Assembly (NCBI GenBank): GCA_903896535.1
Contig: CAITYE010000146.1
Coordinates: 1 to 40,683 of the forward strand
Origin: an uncultured Paracraurococcus sp.
Lineage (GTDB): Bacteria > Pseudomonadota > Alphaproteobacteria > Acetobacterales > Acetobacteraceae
Direction of reading: 5' to 3'
DNA length: 40,683 nt
The stretch's first letter is position 1. Every line of letters starts with the position of its first letter. The position numbers and the translations under genes are program-made. Below are positions 5,228 to 35,398 of this stretch, piece after piece. Below the pieces are notes generated by a model that was given only the letters and a program-made list of their open reading frames with translations, was not told the origin of the DNA and did not search any database.

Positions 5228-6037
5228 ATGCTGCATCGCACCATGTTGGGTCACGCCCGTCCGCTCCTCGCCGGACTGCTGCTGCTATGCACCCTCGCCA
5301 GCCCGGCATCGGCGGAGCCACTGCGCGCCCGCTATGAGGTCCGCGCCGCCGGTCTGGCCGTGATGACCGTGCTCGCGCATCTCGATCTCGCTGCGGCCCA
5401 TTACCGGCTGCGGACGGAGGTCCGGGCGACCGGCTTGGCCGCCGTTCTTGGCGATAGTCGGCAGATGACCAGTATCGAAGGGACCTGGCGGGGCAGCGCG
5501 CCCCGGCCGCTGCGGTACCGGGCGGAAGGCATCTGGCGCGGCGCCCCAAGGCAGGTGGCGATGGATTGGCCGACCCCTGAGGAGCCCGTGGTGAGCCTGC
5601 TGGTGCCACCGAACGATGCGGAGCGTGAGGCGGTACCTCCAACGCTGCGGCGGGGCACCATCGATGGCCTGTCGGCGATCGTGCTGCTGGGCCGTGCTGC
5701 CGCCGAGAGCGGCCGCTGCGACGGCGTGGTGCCGGTCTTCGACGGCCGCCGCCGCGCCGATTACCACGCCGTGACCGAGGGACGCGAACGCTTGGCCGAA
5801 AGCGGCGGCTTCGCCGGCGAAGCCTTGCGCTGCACGGTCGAGGTGCGGGTCTTGGCCGGCCGCCTTAGCGATCAGGACGCGAACGAGGCGAAGACGCCGC
5901 AGCGCGCCACTGCCTGGCTGGCCAGGCTTTCGCCCGGCGGCCCGGTACTGCCGGTGCGGATCGACCTGCCGAGCCGCTGGTTCGGCACCGTCCGCATCCA
6001 TCTTTTGGGCGTCGAGCCGGATCCTTCAGCGAACTAG
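5228..6037 (+). CDS. DUF3108 domain exported protein
   Basis: The protein has an N-terminal signal peptide (hydrophobic LLAGLLLLCTLASPASA, cleavage after SASA-like ASA) and a mature part rich in beta strands. It begins EPLRARYEVRAAGLAVMTV, matching the DUF3108 family of periplasmic or outer-membrane-associated proteins of unknown function in Proteobacteria. I chose the ATG at 5228 because it gives a normal signal peptide; the in-frame codon at 5189 adds 13 unlikely residues, and ATG 5243 is also possible. The 3' end overlaps the oppositely oriented phosphatase gene by 12 bases. Function is unknown. No neighbouring gene suggests a partner. Confidence 0.75.
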   Translation: MLHRTMLGHARPLLAGLLLLCTLASPASAEPLRARYEVRAAGLAVMTVLAHLDLAAAHYRLRTEVRATGLAAVLGDSRQMTSIEGTWRGSAPRPLRYRAEGIWRGAPRQVAMDWPTPEEPVVSLLVPPNDAEREAVPPTLRRGTIDGLSAIVLLGRAAAESGRCDGVVPVFDGRRRADYHAVTEGRERLAESGGFAGEALRCTVEVRVLAGRLSDQDANEAKTPQRATAWLARLSPGGPVLPVRIDLPSRWFGTVRIHLLGVEPDPSAN

Positions 6038-10112: not shown

Positions 10113-11534
10113 ATGCCCGATACCGCGATTGCCACCGATCCCGCCCGGCTTGGGCTCGCCGAAGCCGCGGCGCTGATTGCCCGCCGCTCGCTCTCGCCGG
10201 TCGAACTTGTTCGTGCCGTGCTGGATCGCATCGCCCGGCGCGACGCCGCGCTGCATGCCCATATCACCGTGTTGGCCGAGCCGGCGATGGCTGCCGCCCG
10301 CGCTGCGGAGGCAGAGATCATGGCCTCCGGCCCGCGCGGGCCGCTGCACGGCATCCCCTATGGGCTCAAGGATAATTACGACACGGCAGGGCTGCGAACG
10401 ACCGTGGCCTCGCGTGCCCGTTGGGACCACGTCCCGGCAACCGATGCCACGCTGCATGCGCGCCTCCAGGCGGCTGGTGGCATCCTGATCGGCAAGCACA
10501 ATACCTGGGAATACGGCACCGGCCTCGGCGATTTGCAGGATGATCTGCCGGTGCCCGCGCCGCGGAATGCCTGGAACCCCGACTACTACACGGCCGGGTC
10601 GAGCAACGGCACCGGCGTCGCAGTTGCTGCTGGCTTCTGCGCACTCGGCCTGGGGTCTGATACTGGCGGGTCGGTCCGCATGCCGGCCGCCGCGCATGGG
10701 CTGCATGGCCTGAAGCCGACCTATGGACGCCTCTCACGCGTTGGCATCCTGCCCAATGCCTATACGCTCGACGTCGCCGGTCCGCTGACACGGCGCGCGC
10801 GCGATGCGGCGTTGGCGATGAACGTGCTCGCCGGCCATGACCCGCTCGACCCCACCAGCCTGACGGCGCCGGTGCCCGATCACGCCGCCGGGATCGAAGC
10901 GGGCGTCGCCGGCCTTACCATCGGTGTGCTGCGCCGCTTCCATGAGCGTGATTTCGCGGCCGATCCGGAAGTGATGGCCGCCTTCGAAGGCGCGGTCGCG
11001 GTATTCCGTGCGCTCGGCGCGCGGCTGGTCGAGATCGATCTGCCTGATAGCGTGCAAAGCTATCGCGACTGCATGCGGCCGATCTCGGCAGCCGAGGCGC
11101 TGTCGATCCACGGCGCCGATGTGCGGGAGAAATTCCCGCTGATGGGCCGCGCCCTGCAGGACAAGTTTCTCGGCGCCGCCGCGGTGACCGGCGCCGAATA
11201 CGTCACGGCACAACGCTGGCGCCGCCAGATGGCCGCGACGACGGATGCCGCGATCCGGTCCTGCAACGCCGTCCTGATGCCCTGCGCCATGACCCGCGTG
11301 CCCCGCTGGTCTGAGGGCGAAGCGCGCTTCCGTGAGTTCATGATGGCCAGCGCCACCTGCGTGCTGAACGTCTCCGGCCATCCCGCGGCGAGCATCTGCG
11401 CCGGCTTCGATTCCGCTGGCCTGCCGCTCTCGCTGCAACTCGTCGCCCCCTATCTGGGCGAGCCGACCCTGCTGCGCGTCGCCCACGCTTTCGAGGAAGC
11501 CACCGGTTTTTGGCGGCGCCTGCCCGCCGAGTGA
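10113..11534 (+). CDS. Amidase signature family hydrolase
   Basis: The 473-residue protein has the amidase-signature catalytic set: Lys86 in YGLKDNYDTAG, the cis-serine in AGSSNGTG (163–164) and nucleophile Ser187 in GLGSDTGGSVRMPAAAHG. It hydrolyses a C–N amide bond; the substrate is not readable. The serine-rich loop reads SSNGTG where most members have SSGGS, a mild deviation. It is followed 9 bases later by a small AtzG/DUF4089-like gene and then by a peptide-type binding protein. That arrangement resembles AtzE (1-carboxybiuret hydrolase) with its small subunit AtzG rather than GatA, because no gatB or full gatC is near. The GCAAGG before ATG 10113 may serve as ribosome-binding site. Confidence 0.88.
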   Translation: MPDTAIATDPARLGLAEAAALIARRSLSPVELVRAVLDRIARRDAALHAHITVLAEPAMAAARAAEAEIMASGPRGPLHGIPYGLKDNYDTAGLRTTVASRARWDHVPATDATLHARLQAAGGILIGKHNTWEYGTGLGDLQDDLPVPAPRNAWNPDYYTAGSSNGTGVAVAAGFCALGLGSDTGGSVRMPAAAHGLHGLKPTYGRLSRVGILPNAYTLDVAGPLTRRARDAALAMNVLAGHDPLDPTSLTAPVPDHAAGIEAGVAGLTIGVLRRFHERDFAADPEVMAAFEGAVAVFRALGARLVEIDLPDSVQSYRDCMRPISAAEALSIHGADVREKFPLMGRALQDKFLGAAAVTGAEYVTAQRWRRQMAATTDAAIRSCNAVLMPCAMTRVPRWSEGEARFREFMMASATCVLNVSGHPAASICAGFDSAGLPLSLQLVAPYLGEPTLLRVAHAFEEATGFWRRLPAE

Positions 11535-11543
11535 GGAGAAACC

Positions 11544-11732
11544 ATGATGCCTGGCCCCAAGGATGCCGAAGCCCTTGCCCTGTTGCTCAGGGCCGGGATC
11601 GAGACTGCGGATCACGCGCTTGTCGCGCGCATGGTGATCGCCGCCGAGGCGATGCGCGCCGGCCTTGACCGCCAGCCGCGCGACCTGCCGGCCGGGCTTG
11701 AGCCGGCCTCGGCGTTCGTGGTGCGGCCATGA
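11544..11732 (+). CDS. AtzG-like / DUF4089 small amidase subunit
   Basis: The 62-residue product is helical and ends in DLPAGLEPASAFVVRP. From memory, DUF4089/AtzG proteins are about 60–70 residues, with two helices and a conserved C-terminal LEPA-x-x-F-type tail, and they sit next to AtzE-type amidases whose structure they stabilise in the manner of GatC. The pattern and the location directly after an amidase support this, but the call rests on short similarity. A GAGGAG stands 7 bases before ATG 11544. The stop overlaps the start of the binding-protein gene as ATGA. Confidence 0.65.
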   Translation: MMPGPKDAEALALLLRAGIETADHALVARMVIAAEAMRAGLDRQPRDLPAGLEPASAFVVRP

Positions 11733-13330
11733 GGTTCGCCCGGCGTAGCCTGGCGGCGCTGGCGGGCGCGCTCGGCCTGCCCGGTCCCGTCCGGGCGCAG
11801 CAGGAAAGCGTGCTGCGTGTGGCCATGACGCTGTCCGATATCCCGGCACTCGGCGGCCAGCCCGACCAGGGCGGGGAGGGCTGGCGCTTCATCGGCTGCA
11901 CCCTGTTCGAGACGCTGGTGAACTGGGACCTCAGCCGCGCCGACAAGCCGACCCGGCTGATCCCCGGCCTGGCGCAGGAGTGGGAAGCGGATCCGGCCGA
12001 TCGTCGCCGCTGGACCTTCCGGCTGATCCGCACCGCGCGGTTTCATGACGGCAGCCCCTTCAATGCCGATGCGCTGATCTGGAACCTGCAAAAACTCACG
12101 GACCGAAGCGCGCCGCAGTATGATCCGCGACAGGTCGCGCAGACCTTCGGGCGGATGAACGCGCTCTCCGGTTTCGAGAAGATCGACGACTTCACGGTGC
12201 GGATCGTCACCAAGTCGCCGGACAGCATGGTGCCCTATTATTTTGCCCGGATCATGATGTCCTCGCCGGCGCAGTGGGAAAAGGTCGGGCGCAACTGGGA
12301 AGCCTTCGGCCGCGCGCCGTCCGGCACCGGCCCCTGGAAGTTCGACCGGCTGACGCCGCGCCAGCGGCTGGAACTGGTCAAGAACACCGATTACTGGGAC
12401 CCGACGCGGATTCCCAAGACCGACCGGCTGGTGCTGCTGCCGATCCCGGATGCCAATACCCGCGTCGCCGCGCTGCTCTCCGGTCAGGTCGATTTTGTCG
12501 AAGCCCCGCCACCGGATGCGCAGGCCCGGCTGAAGGCGGCCGGCATGCGGATCGTCACCAACAGCTACCAGCATACTTGGCCCTGGTTCCTCAGCCGGGT
12601 CGATGGTGCGCCGACCAATGATATCCGCGTGCGCCAAGCCATGAACCTGGCGATCGACCGCGAGGGCATCGCTGGGCTGCTGCAGGGCTTCGGCGGGCCG
12701 GCAGTGGGCCACGTGCCGCCCGACCATCCCTGGTTCGGCAAGCCGCAATGGCAGATCCGCTATGACCCGGCGGAGGCGAAGCGGCTACTTGCCGCGGCCG
12801 GCTACGGCCCCGGCAAGCCCTTGCGCATCCGCGTCACCATCACGCCCTCCGGCTCCGGCCAGATGCAGCCCCAGGTCATGAACGAGGCGATCCAGGAGAT
12901 GCTGCGCGCGGTCGGCATCGAAGTGACCTTCGAGGTGATCGACTGGTCGACCATGACCCAGCGGCGCGGCCAGGGCGCCCAGGTGCCGGAACAGGCCGGC
13001 ATTGTCGGGCTCAATAATTCCTGGTCCTGGGTCGATCCGGATTTCGGTTTCCTCAGCGTGCTGGCGAGCGACAAGATTCCGCCGGCTGGGAATAACTGGG
13101 GCAATGTGCGGGTCGCGGAATTCGACCGGCTCTCCGCCGCCGTGCGGTCTGAATTCGACCAGGAAAAGCAGGATGCCCTGCTGGCGGAGTTGCACGCCCG
13201 GATGGTGGAGGACGCGACCTGGCTGTTTGTCGTGCACGACCTGAACCCGCGCGCGCTGAGCCCGAAGGTGAAAGGCTTCGTGCAGGCGCGCCACTGGATC
13301 CAGGATCTGACGCCGATTTCGATGGGCTGA
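11729..13330 (+). CDS. ABC transporter substrate-binding protein, family 5 (peptide/nickel type)
   Basis: The 533-residue protein is a solute-binding protein of the DppA/OppA type (SBP_bac_5). It begins with a twin-arginine-like signal (FARRSLAALAGALG, cleavage probably at VRA-QQ), so Tat export is possible. Typical family segments follow: LFETLVNWD, PGLAQEWE, FHDGSPFNADALIWNL, SGTGPWKFD, DANTRVAALLSGQVDFVEAPPP and IRVRQAMNLAIDREGI. It binds a peptide-like or amide ligand in the periplasm for an ABC importer. No permease or ATPase genes are present, so the rest of the transporter lies elsewhere or is shared. Its start overlaps the AtzG-like gene, which links the cargo with the amidase. Confidence 0.9.
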   Translation: MRFARRSLAALAGALGLPGPVRAQQESVLRVAMTLSDIPALGGQPDQGGEGWRFIGCTLFETLVNWDLSRADKPTRLIPGLAQEWEADPADRRRWTFRLIRTARFHDGSPFNADALIWNLQKLTDRSAPQYDPRQVAQTFGRMNALSGFEKIDDFTVRIVTKSPDSMVPYYFARIMMSSPAQWEKVGRNWEAFGRAPSGTGPWKFDRLTPRQRLELVKNTDYWDPTRIPKTDRLVLLPIPDANTRVAALLSGQVDFVEAPPPDAQARLKAAGMRIVTNSYQHTWPWFLSRVDGAPTNDIRVRQAMNLAIDREGIAGLLQGFGGPAVGHVPPDHPWFGKPQWQIRYDPAEAKRLLAAAGYGPGKPLRIRVTITPSGSGQMQPQVMNEAIQEMLRAVGIEVTFEVIDWSTMTQRRGQGAQVPEQAGIVGLNNSWSWVDPDFGFLSVLASDKIPPAGNNWGNVRVAEFDRLSAAVRSEFDQEKQDALLAELHARMVEDATWLFVVHDLNPRALSPKVKGFVQARHWIQDLTPISMG

Positions 13331-13349
13331 CCCCGGCCGGGTGCCTCAT

Positions 13350-13390
13350 ACCAGCGGTCAAATCCGTTGACCGCTGGTGTTGGCTTTTTT
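13350..13390 (+). terminator. Rho-independent terminator after the amidase operon
   Basis: A perfect 12-base stem, ACCAGCGGTCAA (13350–13361) and TTGACCGCTGGT (13367–13378), encloses a five-base loop. It is followed six bases later by a run of six T (13385–13390). It lies 20 bases after the binding-protein stop. On the other strand there is no T-run, so it is oriented to the plus-strand operon. Confidence 0.85.
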
Positions 13391-13458: not shown

Positions 13459-14706
13459 TCAGAACCGTCCGGCCCGATAGGGCTCCACCGGCACGAAGGG
13501 CTGCTCTCCGGCCATCATCTCCGCCAGCAGCCGCCCCGTGCTGGGCCCGAGCGTGAAGCCCTGGTGCGCGTGGCCAAAGGCGCCCCAGGCGCCGGGCATG
13601 CCGGGCAGCGGGCCGATCACCGGCAGCATGTCCGGCAGGCAGGGCCGCACGCCCATCCAGGGCTGCGCCTCCCGCGCCTCGCCCAACGGCAGCATGGCCC
13701 GCGCTACCGGTTCGGCGCGGGCCAGTTGCACCGGCGTGGGTGGCGCATCCAGCGCCGCGAATTCGATCCCCGTGGTCAGTCGGACCCCGGCCCGCATCGG
13801 CATCAGGGCGAAGCCGGCGGGCGCGTCGATCACCGGGTGGTGCAGCACGGCATTGCCGGTCAGCCCGTAATGCTTGTGATAGCCGCGCTTGCCGAACAGC
13901 GGCGGGGCGTAGCCGAAGCGCTGCGTCAGCGCCGCCGCATGGGCGCCGAGCGCCACGACCACCTCCGCCGCTTCCACGGGCCCGGCCGCGGTCGTCACCC
14001 GCCAGCCGGCACCGCTACGCGCCAGGGTCATGGCATCGCCGTGGGCGAAGCGCCCGCCCTCCCGCGCCAGCAGATCGGCATAGGCCATGACCAGCGCGTG
14101 CGGGTCACTGACCGATAGCGGATCGGTCCAGTGGATCGCGTGCGGCCGGCTGATCCGCAGATGCGGCTCGGCGGCCGCCAGTCCCGCGGCGTCCAGTGCG
14201 CGGAAGCCGACGCCATATTCCGCCCGGGCGCGCTCCGCCTTGGCCAGCGCCGGCCGGAAGCTCGCCGCATCAGCAAAGAGCCGCATCCAGCCGAGCGGGC
14301 GCAGCAGCGCATCCGCCGCCGGCCCGGCCGCTTGCGCCAACGCGCGATGTTCCTCGATGCAGGTGACGACCAGCGCTGCATGCGCCAGCGACAGAGCCTC
14401 GTAGCGCGCGGGGGCGGAGTTCCACCAATAGCGCAGCAGCGGCAGGGCGAGGCCGGGCAGGGCCGTCGGGTGGTAGTGCACTTCGCGCGTGCCATTGCCG
14501 GCGAAGCGCAGCAGTTCTTTCAACTCGCGCGGGAAGGGGGTGGGGAAGACCGCCTCGCGCTGGATCAGCCCGCCATTGCCGAAGGAGGCTCCCTCACCGG
14601 GGTCGCGGCGGTCCAGCACAAGCACATCGTATCCCCGCTGGCGCAGATGCAGCCCCACCGAGACGCCGACCATGCCGGCGCCGAGGATAATTGCTGAGCG
14701 GGGCAT
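13459..14706 (-). CDS. FAD-dependent D-amino-acid dehydrogenase-like oxidoreductase (DadA type)
   Basis: The 415-residue protein is a DAO-family flavoenzyme. The FAD-binding fold opens at residue 4 (AIILGAGMVGVSVGLHLRQRGYDVLVLDRRDPGEGASFGNGG) and the C-terminus has the second FAD contact MGVRPCLPDMLPVIGPLPG and GHAHQGFTLGPSTG. This matches the DadA small-subunit type that oxidatively deaminates D-amino acids or related amines into the respiratory chain. I chose ATG 14706 because it starts the FAD fold directly and sits 8 bases after the cyclase stop; an upstream start would overlap the cyclase gene in another frame. It is the last gene of a four-gene leftward operon. The true substrate is unknown. 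Confidence 0.87.
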   Translation of the reverse strand: MPRSAIILGAGMVGVSVGLHLRQRGYDVLVLDRRDPGEGASFGNGGLIQREAVFPTPFPRELKELLRFAGNGTREVHYHPTALPGLALPLLRYWWNSAPARYEALSLAHAALVVTCIEEHRALAQAAGPAADALLRPLGWMRLFADAASFRPALAKAERARAEYGVGFRALDAAGLAAAEPHLRISRPHAIHWTDPLSVSDPHALVMAYADLLAREGGRFAHGDAMTLARSGAGWRVTTAAGPVEAAEVVVALGAHAAALTQRFGYAPPLFGKRGYHKHYGLTGNAVLHHPVIDAPAGFALMPMRAGVRLTTGIEFAALDAPPTPVQLARAEPVARAMLPLGEAREAQPWMGVRPCLPDMLPVIGPLPGMPGAWGAFGHAHQGFTLGPSTGRLLAEMMAGEQPFVPVEPYRAGRF

Positions 14707-14714
14707 CGGGATGC

Positions 14715-15503
14715 CTATGCCTCGAAGATCGCGACGGCTCGCGTCCAGCCGGCCGAGCCGCGATGCACCTTCACCGGAAAGCAGGCCACCATGAAACCGT
14801 CGGCCGGCAGGCTCTCCAGGTTCGAGAGTTTTTCGATGTGGCAGTAGCCAATCTCCCGCCCCGCCCGATGGCCCTCCCAGATGATGTCGGGGGAGGCGCC
14901 CTCGGCAAGGCGCTGCTTCGTCACGCTGAAGGGCACGTCCCAGGACCAGGCATCCGTGCCCGCGACCCGCACCCCGCGTTCCAACAGCCACAGCGTCGCC
15001 GCCTTGCCCATGCCGCAGCCGGCATCGATGTAGTCATCCTCGCCATAGCGGCTGCCGGCGCGGGTATTGACCAGCACGATCTCCAACGGCTGGAGCGTGT
15101 GGCCGATGCGGGCGAGTTCCTTCGCCACATCCTCGGGCGTCACGGTGTAGCCATCCGGCAGGGCGCGGAAGTCGAGCTTCACGCCGGGTTGGAAGCACCA
15201 ATCGAGCGGCACCTCGTCGATCCGCATGGCAGGCCGCCCGCCCGGCGTCAGGCGTTCATCCTGGCGGGGGAAGAAGTGATAGGGGCTGTCCAGATGGGTG
15301 CCGGCATGGGTGCTGATGCGGACCTGTTCACGCGCCGCGTAATTACCCTCCGGCAGCGCATCCAGGCCGATGCCGAAATACTCGGCGATGGGCGGCGCCG
15401 TCATCTTGTGGTCGTGATAATCGATCTGCGGCAGCGCCCAGGGCGGGTCCGACTTGATGCCCTGCTTCAACGCGACCGAGATATCGACGATGCGGCGCGG
15501 CAT
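14715..15503 (-). CDS. Cyclase family protein (kynurenine formamidase-like metal hydrolase)
   Basis: The 262-residue protein carries the family signature HAGTHLDSPYHFF (about residues 66–78), in which histidines and aspartate bind metal. It also has the later segments NTRAGSRYGEDDYIDAGCGM and GTDAWSWDVPF. These metal-dependent hydrolases (PF04199) include kynurenine formamidase and isatin hydrolase and open amide or lactam bonds. GGAGG lies 7 bases before ATG 15503. It is 14 bases downstream of a Bug binding-protein gene and 8 bases upstream of the DadA-like gene. The context suggests that an imported carboxylate bearing an amide or lactam is hydrolysed and then oxidised. Confidence 0.88.
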   Translation of the reverse strand: MPRRIVDISVALKQGIKSDPPWALPQIDYHDHKMTAPPIAEYFGIGLDALPEGNYAAREQVRISTHAGTHLDSPYHFFPRQDERLTPGGRPAMRIDEVPLDWCFQPGVKLDFRALPDGYTVTPEDVAKELARIGHTLQPLEIVLVNTRAGSRYGEDDYIDAGCGMGKAATLWLLERGVRVAGTDAWSWDVPFSVTKQRLAEGASPDIIWEGHRAGREIGYCHIEKLSNLESLPADGFMVACFPVKVHRGSAGWTRAVAIFEA

Positions 15504-15517
15504 GCGCGGGCCTCCTG

Positions 15518-16453
15518 CTATTCCGGTTGCACGCCGAGCGATTTCAGCACCACGGCGTGGTCATCGTAATGCGCCCGCAGCCGCGCCGCAAAATCCGCCT
15601 GGCCCAGATATTCCGGCAGCACTGCCCAGCGTATCGCCATGGTCTTGAAGGCCTCGGTCCGCATCCCGGCGGCACAGGCGGCTTCCAGCCGGGCGAGAAG
15701 CGGCGCCGGCGTCCCGCGCGGCGCGTAGAGACCTCCCGCGGAGAGTTCCACCGCCTCGATCCCCTGCTCGCGCGCGGTCGGAACATCGGGGAAATCCGGG
15801 TGGCGGCGGAGGGAGAAGGTGCCGATCAGGCGCATCTCGCCATTCCGGACCATGGGCGCGGCGGAGGCGACGACGACCGCCCCGGCATCCAGCCGGCCCG
15901 CCCTTACTTCCAGCAACGCCTGGGCATCGGCGCGATAGGGCACATGCACATATTCGCCGCCCATCGCCCTGGCGATGCGGGCGATGCCGATGGCAGGCGC
16001 TGAATTCGGGCCGGGCGAGCCGTAGCTGACCGGCCGGCGCTTTGCTTCGGCGACCAGGTCGTTCAGCGATCGCCAGGGGCTGTCGGCGCGGACGGCGACG
16101 CCCAGGATATTCTCGGTCACGTTGCAGATCGGCGCGATCGCCTCCGGCCCCAGGCCAGTATCCTTCACCAGATGCGGCTGGATGGTCAGCGGCACCAGCG
16201 CGGAGAACGCCAAGGTGTAGCCATCCGGTGCGCTGGCCGCGAGGACGCGCAACCCGACCACGCCCGACCCGCCCTCTCGGTTCACCAGCACGACAGGCTG
16301 GCCGAGATCGGCTGCCATGCCCTCGGCCAAGGCGCGGCTGACCGCATCGGCCTGGCTCCCGGTGGCGTAGGGATTGATTAGGGTGATCGGCCGATCCGGC
16401 CAGGCCAGCGCGGGGGACGAGAGCAGCAGGCAGGCCAGCAGCCAACGCTTCAT
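15518..16453 (-). CDS. Bug family tripartite tricarboxylate transporter binding protein (second of a pair)
   Basis: The 311-residue protein begins MKRWLLACLLLSSPALAWPDRP, a signal peptide followed by the Bug-family opening PDRPITLINPYATGSQADAVSRALAEGMAADLGQPVVLVNREGGSGVVG. The AASAPDGYTLAFS segment is also typical. Bug proteins bind carboxylates in the periplasm for TctAB-type or other uptake. No tctA or tctB gene is in the window, as is common for orphan Bug genes. Its start overlaps the stop of the upstream paralogue (ATGA at 16450–16453). Both end in the same GVQPE tail, indicating a tandem duplication. Confidence 0.92.
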   Translation of the reverse strand: MKRWLLACLLLSSPALAWPDRPITLINPYATGSQADAVSRALAEGMAADLGQPVVLVNREGGSGVVGLRVLAASAPDGYTLAFSALVPLTIQPHLVKDTGLGPEAIAPICNVTENILGVAVRADSPWRSLNDLVAEAKRRPVSYGSPGPNSAPAIGIARIARAMGGEYVHVPYRADAQALLEVRAGRLDAGAVVVASAAPMVRNGEMRLIGTFSLRRHPDFPDVPTAREQGIEAVELSAGGLYAPRGTPAPLLARLEAACAAGMRTEAFKTMAIRWAVLPEYLGQADFAARLRAHYDDHAVVLKSLGVQPE

Positions 16454-17403
16454 TCGGGTTGCACCCCCATCGCCTGCAGGATTTTGCCGGCCGTGCCGTA
16501 TTCCCGCGCCAGCAGCGCCGTGAAGCCGGCGCGGTCGCGGTAATCGGCGACGATGCCGAAGCGTTCCACCGCGCGCTGCCAGGGCGCGGCGCGCATCGCC
16601 TCGGCGCAGGCGGCTTCCAGCTTGGCCAGGATCGGCGCCGGCGTCCCCTTCGGCGCCAGCATCCCGGCATAGGACATCTGCTCGGCCGCGATACCCTGTT
16701 CCGGGAAGGTCGGCGCGTTCGGAAAGGCCGGGTAGCGCCGGTCGGCGAAGACGCCGATCAGCCGCAATTGGCCGGCTTCGATCTGCGGCGTGGCGTTGGC
16801 CAGCATGGTCGCGGCGAAATCCAGCCGCCCGCCCAGCACATCCGCCAAGGACGCACCATCGCTGCGATAGGCGACGGAATCATATTCCCCGCCCGCCGCC
16901 TGTTGCAGCTTCACCACGCCGAGCGCCGAGAGTGAAAGTTGCCCGGTGGTGCCGTAGACCAGCCGCTTCGCCTTGGCCGCCGCGATCAGCCCGGCGCCGT
17001 CGCGGAAGGGGCTGTCCGCGCGCACCACCACGCCCAGCATATTGGCGGAGATGTTGCAGATCGGCGCCACCGCATCGGGGTTGAGGCCGGTATCCTTCAC
17101 GATCCAGGGCTGGGCGGTGATGGCGGTCATCGGCCCGATCAAGAGCGTGTAGCCATCGGGGGCGCTGGTCGCCAGCGCCCGGGTGCCGACCACCCCCGCG
17201 GCACCATCGCGGTTGACCACCGGGAAGGCTTGCCCGAAGCGGACGGCGAAGGCTTCGGCGATCGCCCGAGCGGTGGCGTCGGACGCCGTGCCCGGTCCGT
17301 AATTGTGAATGATCGTCACCGGCCGTTCCGGATATTCCGCTCTGGCCGGCAGGATGATGGCGGCAGCCAGCAGCAAGCTGGCCAGCATGGCCTGGGGTGG
17401 CAT
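16450..17403 (-). CDS. Bug family tripartite tricarboxylate transporter binding protein (first of a pair)
   Basis: The 317-residue protein has a signal peptide (MLASLLLAAAIILPARAEYPERP) and the Bug motifs YPERPVTIIHNYGPGTASDATARAIAEAF, NRDGAAGVVGTRALATSAPDGYTLL and GGRLDFAATMLANATPQI. It is the promoter-proximal gene of the leftward operon Bug–Bug–cyclase–DadA. AGGGAGAAGCGC precedes the ATG. Its binding-pocket loops differ from the downstream paralogue (for example PGTAS against ATGSQ), so the two may bind different ligands. It lies divergent from gabD across a 110-base gap. Confidence 0.92.
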   Translation of the reverse strand: MPPQAMLASLLLAAAIILPARAEYPERPVTIIHNYGPGTASDATARAIAEAFAVRFGQAFPVVNRDGAAGVVGTRALATSAPDGYTLLIGPMTAITAQPWIVKDTGLNPDAVAPICNISANMLGVVVRADSPFRDGAGLIAAAKAKRLVYGTTGQLSLSALGVVKLQQAAGGEYDSVAYRSDGASLADVLGGRLDFAATMLANATPQIEAGQLRLIGVFADRRYPAFPNAPTFPEQGIAAEQMSYAGMLAPKGTPAPILAKLEAACAEAMRAAPWQRAVERFGIVADYRDRAGFTALLAREYGTAGKILQAMGVQPE

Positions 17404-31652: not shown

Positions 31653-33326
31653 CTAAACCTCCACCCCATACAAATCCCGCGCCGCCTGCTTGCTGATCAG
31701 CCCATCGGCCACGTCGCGCTTCACCAGGTCCGGATCGCGCGCCTTGGGGTCGCCCATGCCGCCGCCGCCCGGCAGTTTCAGCAGCAGCCGCCTTCCCTTG
31801 GGGATGATCTGGAAGCCCTTGGTGCGCAGCGGCGTGCCATTGGCATCGTTCAGCCCGACCCAGCCGGCCGCGCCCTCGCCGCCGCCCTCGCGCCCCTTGG
31901 GCGGGTTGGCGACGCGGTCGAAGATGGCATTCACGGCGTATTCGGCATCGCCCTTGGCGCCGATTTCCATGATCTGCCCGAAGCCGCCGCGGGTGCGCCC
32001 GGCGCCGGCGGAATCCGGCCGCAGTTCCTTCTTCCAGAAGATCACCGGGGCGACGTTCTCCGTCGCCTCCACCGGCATGGTGCGGACGCCGGACGGGAAG
32101 GCGATGCCGTCCAGCCCGTCCTTGCCCGGCCGCGCGCCGGTGCCGCCGGAGTTGAAGGTGATGATCTCGAAATCCTCGACCTCCGCCGCCGGGCCGGAGA
32201 CCTGGGAGCCGCCGCGCAGCGGTGGGTTCCACAGCGCGGAGGAGCCTTCCGCATTCACCCGCCCCGGCACCGCCTGGTGCAGGCAGCCCATCATCAGGTC
32301 GGGGATCAACTGCCCGACCACGTGCCGGACAGATACCGGATACGGCCGCGGGGCGTTCAGGATGCAGCCTGTCGGAATCTCCATCCGGAAGGGGGCGAGG
32401 GAGGCCCAGTTATTCGGCACCTCCGGCGCCACCACGCATTTGATCCCGAAGCAGGAATAGGCCCGGCAATAGGCCGGCGGCACGTTGATGCCGCGCGTCG
32501 AAAGACCTGATGTGCCGGCGTAATCGACGACGATCTCATCCTCATGCACCGTCATCGCCGCGTGCAGCGTGACCGGCGCCTCATACCCGTCGGAGCGGAT
32601 TTCGGACCGGTAGGTGCCCTTCGGCAGCTTGCGGATTTCATCGAGCGTCGCCTGCCGGCTGCTTTCGAAGATGAAGGCGCCCAGCGGGTCGATGCTGTCC
32701 ATGTCGAACTCGTCCAGCATCTCCACCAGCCGCTTGGCGCCGGCGTCGTTGCAGGCACAGAGGGAGTAGATATCCCCCTCCAGCTCGATCGGGGTGCGAG
32801 AGCCCGCGCGGATGAAGTCGAAGAAGGTCTCGTTCGCCACGCCGCCCGCCTCAAAGCAGCGGACGATGGGGATGAAGAGCCCTTCCTCGAACACCGAACG
32901 CCCTTCCGGCCCCATGCCGAGCCCGCCGATATCGATGATATGCGCGGTATTGGCAAACAGCCCGACGATCTTGCCCTTGCGGAAGGCGGGGGAGACGACG
33001 GTGAGGTCGTGCAGATGCCCGGTCGCCAGCCAGGGATCATTGGTGATGTAGTGCTCCCCGGGCTTCATGGTGTGCGCCGGGAATTTCTTCAGGAAATGCC
33101 CGACGCTTTCGGCCATGGAGTTCACATGGCCGGGCGTGCCGGTCACGGCCTGGGCCAGCATCCGCCCTTGCAGGTCGAAGATGCCGGCGGAGAGATCGCC
33201 GGCTTCGCGCACCGTGGTGCTGAAGGCCGTGCGGATCATGGTCTGCGCCTGTTCCTCGACCACCGCGATCAGGCGGTTCCACTGGATCTGGCGCTGGATT
33301 TTGGTGAGGGCACCGGTCTGTTGCAT
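31653..33326 (-). CDS. hyuB: Hydantoinase B / oxoprolinase family subunit
   Basis: The 557-residue protein is a HyuB-type subunit (N-methylhydantoinase / acetone carboxylase / 5-oxoprolinase superfamily). It shows RTAFSTTVREAGDLSAGIFD, GTPGHVNSMAESV, YITNDPWLATGHLHDLTVVSP and a C-terminal GGGGMGDPKARDP. With HyuA it opens a cyclic amide with ATP. The start overlaps the hyuA stop by one base (TGATG), as expected for a stoichiometric complex. The substrate among hydantoins, N-methylhydantoin or oxoproline is not given by the sequence. Confidence 0.92.
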   Translation of the reverse strand: MQQTGALTKIQRQIQWNRLIAVVEEQAQTMIRTAFSTTVREAGDLSAGIFDLQGRMLAQAVTGTPGHVNSMAESVGHFLKKFPAHTMKPGEHYITNDPWLATGHLHDLTVVSPAFRKGKIVGLFANTAHIIDIGGLGMGPEGRSVFEEGLFIPIVRCFEAGGVANETFFDFIRAGSRTPIELEGDIYSLCACNDAGAKRLVEMLDEFDMDSIDPLGAFIFESSRQATLDEIRKLPKGTYRSEIRSDGYEAPVTLHAAMTVHEDEIVVDYAGTSGLSTRGINVPPAYCRAYSCFGIKCVVAPEVPNNWASLAPFRMEIPTGCILNAPRPYPVSVRHVVGQLIPDLMMGCLHQAVPGRVNAEGSSALWNPPLRGGSQVSGPAAEVEDFEIITFNSGGTGARPGKDGLDGIAFPSGVRTMPVEATENVAPVIFWKKELRPDSAGAGRTRGGFGQIMEIGAKGDAEYAVNAIFDRVANPPKGREGGGEGAAGWVGLNDANGTPLRTKGFQIIPKGRRLLLKLPGGGGMGDPKARDPDLVKRDVADGLISKQAARDLYGVEV

Positions 33327-35398
33327 CAGCTGCGCTCCTGCGTCAGGTCGAGATATCCCAGGCTATCCATCCGGCAGGTCCAGCCGGGGCCGACCAGCGT
33401 GCTCGTCTCCGCTTCCGCGATGATGCAGGGGCCGGGCACCTTGGCGCCTGGGGCCATGGCGGCGCGGTCATAGACCGCCCAGTCCGCGACCTCCCCGGTC
33501 ACGGTATCGCGCACCTGCTGCACGCGGATGGGCGGCGGGGCCGGGCTGTCGGCGGCAGGGGCGGCCGGCAGCACCTCCTCGGTCCTGGTGGCGACGGTGA
33601 CGGCGAAGCTCATCACCTCCACATCGCTGCCGGGCACGGGGCGGTCGTAGAAGCGGCTGTATTCGGTATCGTAGGCGGCGCGGATCGCGGCGATGTCCTC
33701 GGCGCCGAGGTCGCGCGGCGGCAGCGGTACGGCAATCTCATGCCCCTGGCCGACATAGCGCATATAGGCCAGCCGGCTTTCGCGCACCGGCGCGCCGAAG
33801 GCGCCTTCGGCGACCACGGCGCGGGCTTCCGCCGCCATGCCCGCCAGCAGCGCATTCACCGCCACCGTGTCGAAGGTGGCGAAACGCTGATAGAGGCTTT
33901 TGACGACCTCATAGGCCACCGGCGCGCGCAGGAAGCCGATGGCGCTGCCCACCCCGGCGCCGGAGGGGACCAGCAGCCGCTTCACGCCGATCTTCTCCGC
34001 CACGCGATAGCCATGCACCGGGCCGCCGCCGCCGAAGGCGATGATGGTCCGCCCGTCATAGCCCTTGCCGCTTTCAATGGCGTGGACGCGGGCGGCATTG
34101 GCCATGTTCTCATCGACCATCTCGACCACGCCGAGGGCGGCCATATCCGCCGGCAGGCCCAGCTTGCCGCCCACTTCAGCGGCCAGCGCCGTGCGCGCAT
34201 GTTCGGGGTACAGGCGCAGCGCGCCGCCCGCGAAGGCCACCGGGTCGTAGCGGCCAAGCGCGAGGTTGGCGTCCGTCACCGCCGGCTTGGCGCCGCCGCG
34301 CCCGTAGCAGGCCGGCCCCGGATCGGCGCCGGCGCTTTCCGGGCCCACGGTGATGCGGCCCATGCCATCCACGGCGGCGATGGAACCGCCGCCGGCGCCG
34401 ATCTCTACCATCTCGATCACCGGGATGCGCAGCGGCAGGCCGGAGCCCTTCTTGAAGCGGCCGACGCGGGCCACTTCGAAGGTGCGGCTGGCCTGCGGCT
34501 GGAAGGCGTCGATCAGGCAGATCTTGGCCGTCGTGCCGCCCATGTCGAAGGACAGCACTTCCGAAAGCCCGCGTTCGCGCGCGACATGGGCGGAGAAGAT
34601 CGCCCCGCCCGCCGGGCCGCTTTCCACCAGGCGGATCGGGAAGCGCGCCGCGGTCTCCAACGTCGTCAGCCCGCCGCCCGAGAGCATCATGAACAGCGGG
34701 CAGGTCAGCCCTGCCGCGCGCAGCCCCACTTCCAGCCGCTTGAGGTAGCTGGCCATCAGCGGCTGCACATAGGCATTGGCGACGGTGGTGGAGAAGCGCT
34801 CCCATTCCCGCATCTCCGGCGAGACCTCGGAGGCGAGGGAGAGCGGCACCTCCGGCCAGAGCCGACGAACGATCTCGGCCGCCTGCTTTTCGTGCACGGG
34901 ATTCACGAAGCCGTGCAGAAAGCCGATCGCCACCGCCTCGATGCCCTCGGCGCGCATGAAGGCGACGTGCTGCTCAACATCACGGGGCTCAAGGGGGATC
35001 AGCACCTTGCCGGTATTGTCCAGCCGCTCCGTCACCGGCAGGCGCCAGCGGCGTGGCACCAGGGGTTGCGCCAGTTCGATGTTCAGATCGTACTGGTCGT
35101 ACCGGCTCTCATTGCCCAGGGCCAACACGTCGCGGAAGCCCTCGGTGGTCAGCAGGGCGGTCTTGGCGCCCTTGCGTTCGATCACCGCATTGGTCGCCAG
35201 CGTGGTGCCGTGGATGACCAGCGCAATATCGGCGGGCGCCAGCCCGGCCTTCTGCAGCACCATCCGCACGGCTTCCAGCACGCCGAGTTCCGGTGCGTGC
35301 GGCGTGGTCAGGACCTTGCCGGTCCAGCGTTCATCTTCCGTCTCCACCGCCACATCGGTGAAGGTGCCGCCGATATCGACTGCCAGTCTTGCCGTCAC
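33326..35398 (-). CDS. hyuA: Hydantoinase A / oxoprolinase family subunit
   Basis: The 690-residue protein is the ATP-using HyuA subunit. The N-terminal ASKHA-type fold has LAVDIGGTFTDVAVE, followed by VIHGTTLATNAVIERKGAKTALLTTEGFRD, SFDMGGTTAKICLID and EIGAGGGSIAAVDGMGRI. It phosphorylates the cyclic amide while HyuB completes hydrolysis. The start is a GTG at 35398 that overlaps the stop of the carbamoyl hydrolase gene (GTGA). All three genes carbamoylase–hyuA–hyuB are coupled, linking ring opening with removal of the carbamoyl group. Confidence 0.92.
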   Translation of the reverse strand: MTARLAVDIGGTFTDVAVETEDERWTGKVLTTPHAPELGVLEAVRMVLQKAGLAPADIALVIHGTTLATNAVIERKGAKTALLTTEGFRDVLALGNESRYDQYDLNIELAQPLVPRRWRLPVTERLDNTGKVLIPLEPRDVEQHVAFMRAEGIEAVAIGFLHGFVNPVHEKQAAEIVRRLWPEVPLSLASEVSPEMREWERFSTTVANAYVQPLMASYLKRLEVGLRAAGLTCPLFMMLSGGGLTTLETAARFPIRLVESGPAGGAIFSAHVARERGLSEVLSFDMGGTTAKICLIDAFQPQASRTFEVARVGRFKKGSGLPLRIPVIEMVEIGAGGGSIAAVDGMGRITVGPESAGADPGPACYGRGGAKPAVTDANLALGRYDPVAFAGGALRLYPEHARTALAAEVGGKLGLPADMAALGVVEMVDENMANAARVHAIESGKGYDGRTIIAFGGGGPVHGYRVAEKIGVKRLLVPSGAGVGSAIGFLRAPVAYEVVKSLYQRFATFDTVAVNALLAGMAAEARAVVAEGAFGAPVRESRLAYMRYVGQGHEIAVPLPPRDLGAEDIAAIRAAYDTEYSRFYDRPVPGSDVEVMSFAVTVATRTEEVLPAAPAADSPAPPPIRVQQVRDTVTGEVADWAVYDRAAMAPGAKVPGPCIIAEAETSTLVGPGWTCRMDSLGYLDLTQERS

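Follow-up and report, generated by a model that had tools for sequence, protein, structure and literature searches.

The window analyzed here, a stretch of 40,683 nucleotides (nt) from an uncultured Paracraurococcus sp. (contig CAITYE010000146.1), encodes at positions 10,113 to 13,330 an amidase, a protein of 62 residues and a solute-binding protein (SBP) of the ATP-binding cassette (ABC) type. These probably constitute a scavenging unit of three genes, namely a two-subunit amidase of a distinct, GatCA-derived clade together with an uptake protein. The amidase gene, the small open reading frame (ORF) and the binding-protein gene form one compact unit closed by a strong hairpin and comprise the following features.

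10113..11534, plus strand: amidase-signature enzyme of 473 residues, proposed catalytic subunit (PF01425; ATG 10113, TGA 11534)
11535..11538, plus strand: GGAG, likely ribosome-binding site of the small ORF (read from the sequence)
11544..11732, plus strand: putative GatC/AtzG-like small subunit of 62 residues (orthologs in the same place, fewer non-synonymous than synonymous differences per site (pN<pS), profile links, structural model)
11729..13330, plus strand: predicted peptide-type ABC solute-binding protein of 533 residues (PF00496; signal-like N-terminus, by eye)
13348..13390, plus strand: hairpin with T-rich tail, likely terminator (14 pairs; folding energy)

The small ORF starts at ATG 11544 (or 11547) and extends over 62 codons to the stop codon TGA at 11730-11732. 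It lies in the frame of the amidase, from which it is separated by one TGA and three codons, and the GGAG is located 5 nt ahead of its first ATG. Stop codon and ATG of the binding-protein gene (11729) share 4 nt, ATGA. The hairpin (13348-13380, followed by the T tail) has a folding energy of -29.1 kcal/mol (z = -7.0), with none of 200 shuffles being as stable. A preliminary description of this DNA had listed a 62-residue frame between amidase and binding protein, a good ribosome-binding site, an overlap with the next start, a LEPA-x-x-F ending and a strong terminator, all of which were confirmed, the protein ending in LEPASAF plus four more residues.

The 62-residue ORF is a genuine gene under purifying selection, because four related genomes have it at the same position and its differences among them are those of a selected coding sequence. 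The order of amidase, small ORF and binding protein is also found in Siccirubricoccus phaeus (L001), a Belnapia metagenome-assembled genome (MAG; L002), Belnapia arida (L003) and a further locus of the same family (L064). Thus, the small ORF is present in 4/4 informative orthologous loci, the contig of L020 ending before its position and L063 and L123 being repeats of the L001 locus. Over the ungapped core of 47 codons, pN was lower than pS in all ten pairs of the five small ORFs when read in the true frame, e.g., 0.19 non-synonymous vs 0.59 synonymous differences per site between the window and L001, whereas the +1 frame of the same core showed pN>pS in 10/10 pairs.

The large protein matches PF01425 with 301 bits over residues 31-454 and features Lys86 in GLKDN, Ser163 in AGSSNG and Ser187 in a DTGGS motif, which we take to be the catalytic residues. 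The serines are spaced by 24 positions, equal to S131 and S155 named in the titles of work on malonamidase E2 mutants, presumably the catalytic serines of that enzyme. Match and Lys/Ser/Ser set together assign the protein to the amidase signature family. Its closest sequences in the PDB were six GatA chains, followed by AtzE (6c62_A). Two more specific assignments were tried and rejected: AtzE (TIGR02715 / PRK09201), with 216.4 vs a cut-off of 425.75 and 232.5 vs 461, and GatA (TIGR00132), with 252.4 vs a cut-off of 481.1. The position of the enzyme among its relatives was derived from a tree of 126 amidase rows (4/130 omitted as overlapping copies, some of the remaining rows representing the same gene from two loci), calculated by a quick method with the Shimodaira-Hasegawa-like approximate likelihood ratio test (SH-aLRT) as the only support measure. 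Therein, the 30 AtzG-associated rows constitute a clade of their own (support 100) and the window amidase falls into a separate clade of 62 rows (support 99). Within the latter, the small partner is encoded upstream in 27 rows, fused in 16 and downstream in nine, a locus edge leaves the matter undecided in five and in five no partner was found. The rows closest to the window amidase, apart from its orthologs, show downstream and fused partners as well as two cases without one. According to cut-off and tree position, the enzyme is not AtzE.

The association of the small protein with amidases extends far beyond the orthologous loci. Among 30 fetched amidase relatives, 27 contain a small-protein match in their locus. 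For a whole-genome survey, a family profile of 29 rows without any AtzG row (A2; five window-type proteins and 24 others) was run against 289 genomes of the class at E <= 1e-5 (up to 22 candidates being scored in each), yielding 41 small-protein matches in 17 genomes. Thirty of these were fetched as loci, three from the window's own genome and 27 from other families, with possible overlap with the A2 rows. An amidase gene adjoins or is fused to that of the small protein in the window, in the four informative orthologs and in 30/30 of these survey loci. Fusions of amidase and small domain account for 19 entries or about 17 distinct genes, as at least two entries repeat a gene, and in all 19 entries the small-subunit domain is C-terminal and begins 15-33 residues beyond the amidase domain (L012:854-4146, L037, L039, L004, L006-L008, L021, L068, L073, L084, among others). 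Some of the fusion genes directly precede a second amidase, and at L022 a frame change interrupts the fusion. The window protein may thereby be placed in a wider set of subunits whose genes lie upstream or downstream of the amidases of one large clade other than that of AtzE, or are fused to them.

Kinship of this set with AtzG was approached by iterated hidden Markov model (HMM) searches in a set of 11,536 segments with inclusion at E<0.01, started from the five window-type proteins (forward run) or from 31 PF13318 proteins (reverse run). The window-type profile reaches other small ORFs adjoining or fused to amidases, and in the forward run the first PF13318 proteins enter in iteration 2 (E 3.6e-4 to 5.3e-3), followed later by the remainder of that set. 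Both runs finish on 90 segments, genes from overlapping loci being counted repeatedly. The flag for amidase adjacency is carried by 87/90 final forward-run segments compared with 1110/11,536 in the searched set, which represents a fair background because its loci were picked for amidases, AtzG or close relatives. A drift check of the three kept segments flagged as non-adjacent revealed that L071 and L097 do adjoin an amidase, both having been missed by the distance rule of the script, and that L061 is probably a false inclusion. In profile-profile comparison (hhalign), the window type aligned with the other 24 rows at Prob 97.7, which is not independent since resemblance to the window type was how these bridging rows had been collected, the 24 bridging rows with AtzG at Prob 94.9, and all 29 rows (A2) with the AtzG profile (A3) at Prob 94.3 and E 1e-7. 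The scores were 57.3, 38.8 and 37.2, respectively, and the best of 200 column shuffles per comparison did not exceed 16.7 in any of the three. The AtzG profile itself matches the solved AtzG chain (6c62_C) at 2.5e-9. Across the 29 rows, E53 is invariant and P54 nearly so. Common descent with AtzG is supported at the profile-profile level by way of the wider family, the iterated searches meet, clearly if begun with the window type and marginally if begun with AtzG, and remote homology supports the small protein as a candidate AtzG/GatC-like amidase partner. Besides, small ORFs ahead of an amidase (about 5823-5981) were observed in two Minwuia MAGs (L018, L029). The protein of L018 borders both GatC (23.0 bits, cut-off 23) and AtzG (21.0, cut-off 24) and may be a possible intermediate; when eight members of the small-protein set were run against Pfam, it alone reached a cut-off (that of GatC).

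Structure prediction from the A2 alignment gave a small-protein model with helices at 5-16 and 24-42 and a C-terminal tail (mean predicted local distance difference test (pLDDT) score 84). Re-alignment by VIA-align 2, covering the top 20 chains of Foldseek, placed AtzG (6c62_C) first, with Z 4.6, a root-mean-square deviation of 3.2 and 52 aligned residues (4-56 on 4-56). The fold of the model weakly agrees with the profile result and would not carry the AtzG claim alone. A tethered model obtained by reading through the amidase stop reached a mean pLDDT of 83; among PDB folds, GatA chains match it best and AtzE ranks tenth.

The following results have to be set against a two-subunit amidase with its own uptake protein. 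The window protein has neither a match to PF13318 (DUF4089/AtzG) at E<=10 nor a GatC match in Pfam, its sole match there being a sub-threshold one to UPF0758_N (E 0.035), and NCBIfam returned none. Orthologs from L002, L003 and L064 likewise lack a PF13318 match (L001 was left out of the scan). The DUF4089 similarity that the preliminary description had proposed to check was not recovered, either for the protein alone or for the profile of five orthologous sequences, the link existing solely via bridging relatives. Compared directly with the AtzG set by HMM and hhalign, the five window-type proteins gave no significant result (Prob 1.4 to 3.0). The reverse run is marginal: L002 is the first window-type entry in iteration 4 at E 0.0048, equal to the probably false L061, with the window ORF at 0.05, and the later values for the window ORF (6.9e-6, finally 1.8e-10) were obtained with L002 in the model, the former depending on it. 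Searching the A2 profile against the PDB retrieved no AtzG or GatC chain, the best matches being chance-like ones to haloacid dehalogenases (E 0.005), and Foldseek found no significant match for the small model. In the re-alignment, a histone-fold chain (Z 4.4) and 3kfu_G (Z 4.0), a chain of 86 residues which we take to be GatC, are tied with AtzG, all Z values being under 5, so that perhaps a mere common helical arrangement was detected. Confidence in the small part of the tethered model is no more than moderate, with a short and a long helix at pLDDT of about 61-67 and ends at 43-48. To these are added the five of 62 rows of the clade without a small partner, the 21 of 30 SBP relatives without an amidase in their flanks of 1.5 kb, and the lack of a PF00528 permease on the contig of the window.

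The last two points lend themselves to the explanation that the binding protein is a functionally unlinked neighbour, i.e., an orphan of a large expanded family, which we regard as unlikely. By its PF00496 (SBP_bac_5) match of 260.3 bits (cut-off 32.4, residues 77-441), the protein belongs to solute-binding protein family 5 and thus resembles the peptide/nickel class (GsiB/DppA-like); its best NCBIfam model, GsiB, stays far under the cut-off. It differs from this class in being encoded within an amidase unit and on a contig without a PF00528 permease. The genome (4.5 Mb) contains 33 SBP_bac_5 matches and 27 amidase matches (some partial), both families being markedly expanded, and the former number also suits an orphan. 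Against it stand the 4-nt overlap with the small ORF and a comparison of 30 SBP loci, taken one per genome and ranked by similarity, in which an amidase is encoded in the flanks of nine and the small protein in those of five. All nine are within the ten most similar. Moreover, the linkage recurs in different layouts. Amidase, small ORF and SBP follow one another in the window, L001, L002, L003 and L064; the SBP precedes amidase, small ORF and a second amidase in L009, L011 and L152 (L155 being the L009 locus again); and in L004 it precedes two amidases with a fused small domain. A divergent arrangement of SBP and small ORF-amidase pair is found in L160, L172, L173 and L175, i.e., in four of the 30 survey loci, where the SBPs score 403-678 bits. 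The L154 locus encodes, after a related SBP, a peptide-type permease and two ATPases, and carries pairs of small ORF and amidase on both sides. Functional coupling of the binding protein with the amidase pair is likely because SBPs of this kind are repeatedly encoded next to these amidases, in several arrangements. The proposal that the coupled binding protein brings in the substrate hence holds as far as the recurrent association is concerned, but lacks the permease on the contig. Four SBP relatives contain one in-frame TGA each (G140:C13:4100-5683, G160:C252:3568-5181, G165:C35:23036-24589, G016:C42:373534-375138) and are taken as pseudogenes or sequencing errors.

It is rather improbable that the amidase works alone, with the small protein as a vestigial or optional GatC-like remnant dispensable for activity. 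Many amidase-signature enzymes act alone, 25 of the 126 tree rows lack a small partner, including the five within the clade of the window, and the window-type protein fails to reach AtzG unaided. Nevertheless, a dispensable remnant is at odds with the purifying selection on the small ORF and with the retention of the partner across the clade, whether upstream, downstream or fused, as well as with the amidase linkage of all 30 fetched loci.

The best-studied counterpart of the proposed two-subunit enzyme is 1-carboxybiuret hydrolase of Pseudomonas sp. ADP (AtzE/AtzG; PDB 6c62; PF13318), which likewise combines a large amidase-signature subunit with a non-catalytic subunit of 60-70 residues. The EPA-type tail of the window protein is present in most proteins of the compared AtzG set, and neighbours of AtzE/AtzG elsewhere include genes for nitrogen compounds and ABC transport, a further likeness to the window unit (PMC6219798). 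It is nonetheless very improbable that the pair consists of a true AtzG and an AtzE-family carboxybiuret hydrolase. The LEPA-x-x-F tail, the stepwise profile link and the presence of the cyanuric acid hydrolase AtzD in the genome (NF052395, 551 vs cut-off 360; G000:C255:4440-5516, L187) would fit. By contrast, the enzyme misses the AtzE cut-offs and lies outside the clade of the 30 AtzG-associated rows, the small protein stays under PF13318 detection, its gene follows the large one whereas AtzG precedes AtzE, and no AtzD is encoded on the contig. In addition, the same genome already possesses a true AtzE, which scores 645 against a cut-off of 461 and is encoded on contig C303 next to an AtzG matching PF13318 (L188). 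With AtzD and a true AtzE/AtzG encoded elsewhere in the genome, the present pair is therefore further argued to fulfil another function. The earlier statement that cyanuric-acid genes are absent applies to the window and not to the genome, and of the AtzE/AtzG-like amidase originally proposed, the AtzG/GatC-like partner is retained on the basis of remote homology and AtzE/AtzG proper is not. A comparable small protein of the AtzG kind is the oxalurate catabolism protein HpxX (NF033624), which pairs with the amidase HpxY. One member of the AtzG set matches HpxX weakly (21 bits, cut-off 70), and neither the window protein nor the tested ortholog (L002) does.

The large subunit has its nearest fold and sequence in GatA of the tRNA-dependent amidotransferase (GatC/GatA; PF02686, TIGR00132), but a second GatCA of the transamidosome type, working together with GatB on charged tRNA, is the least credible explanation and is rejected because the sole GatB match of the genome is located on C132, adjoining the best amidase match of the genome, which is taken as GatA, while the window unit is without a GatB partner, has no PF02686 match and scores under the GatA cut-off.

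In the proposed two-subunit scavenging unit, the periplasmic binding protein would capture an amide-containing nutrient of the kind bound by the peptide/nickel SBP class, which would then be imported by a peptide-type ABC permease encoded elsewhere and be cleaved at its amide by the cytosolic amidase via a Lys-cis-Ser-Ser triad. Uptake and hydrolysis would accordingly concern the same compound. The protein of 62 residues would act as a non-catalytic subunit whose two helices and C-terminal LEPA-x-x-F tail wrap the large subunit in a physical complex, which the amidase would need to stay folded and soluble, as AtzE needs AtzG. AtzG is described as non-catalytic, as forming an obligate heterotetramer with AtzE and as required for AtzE solubility (PMC6219798), and by this analogy the small protein most likely stabilises its amidase.

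Beyond the single unit, we lean slightly towards the view that a large branch of GatCA-derived amidases in Alphaproteobacteria consists of heteromers or fusions with GatC/AtzG-like subunits mostly missed by Pfam and NCBIfam, several of them tied to peptide-type SBPs of their own. A set of amidases recorded in databases as single-subunit enzymes would thus be two-subunit scavengers, each for a different amide. The listings and passages obtained from open-licence papers showed no description of this set of small subunits, the genes of which are short enough to be missed by annotation. If the amidases of the clade need the neighbouring small subunit, the correct expression construct comprises two genes. 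Furthermore, the link to the binding protein offers a route to the substrate, as its ligand could be determined and then tried on the enzyme pair. The known reuse of GatCA would be widened from AtzE/AtzG to a whole clade.

Further genes of the window were observed on the minus strand. Positions 13459-17403 harbor a convergent cluster of an FAD oxidoreductase (DAO), a putative cyclase (PF04199) and two tandem binding proteins of the TctC type. At 33326-35398, a hydantoinase A-type protein (PF01968) is encoded, directly followed by a large ORF (31653-33326), so that 31653-35398 might possibly represent another catabolic unit for amides or imides.

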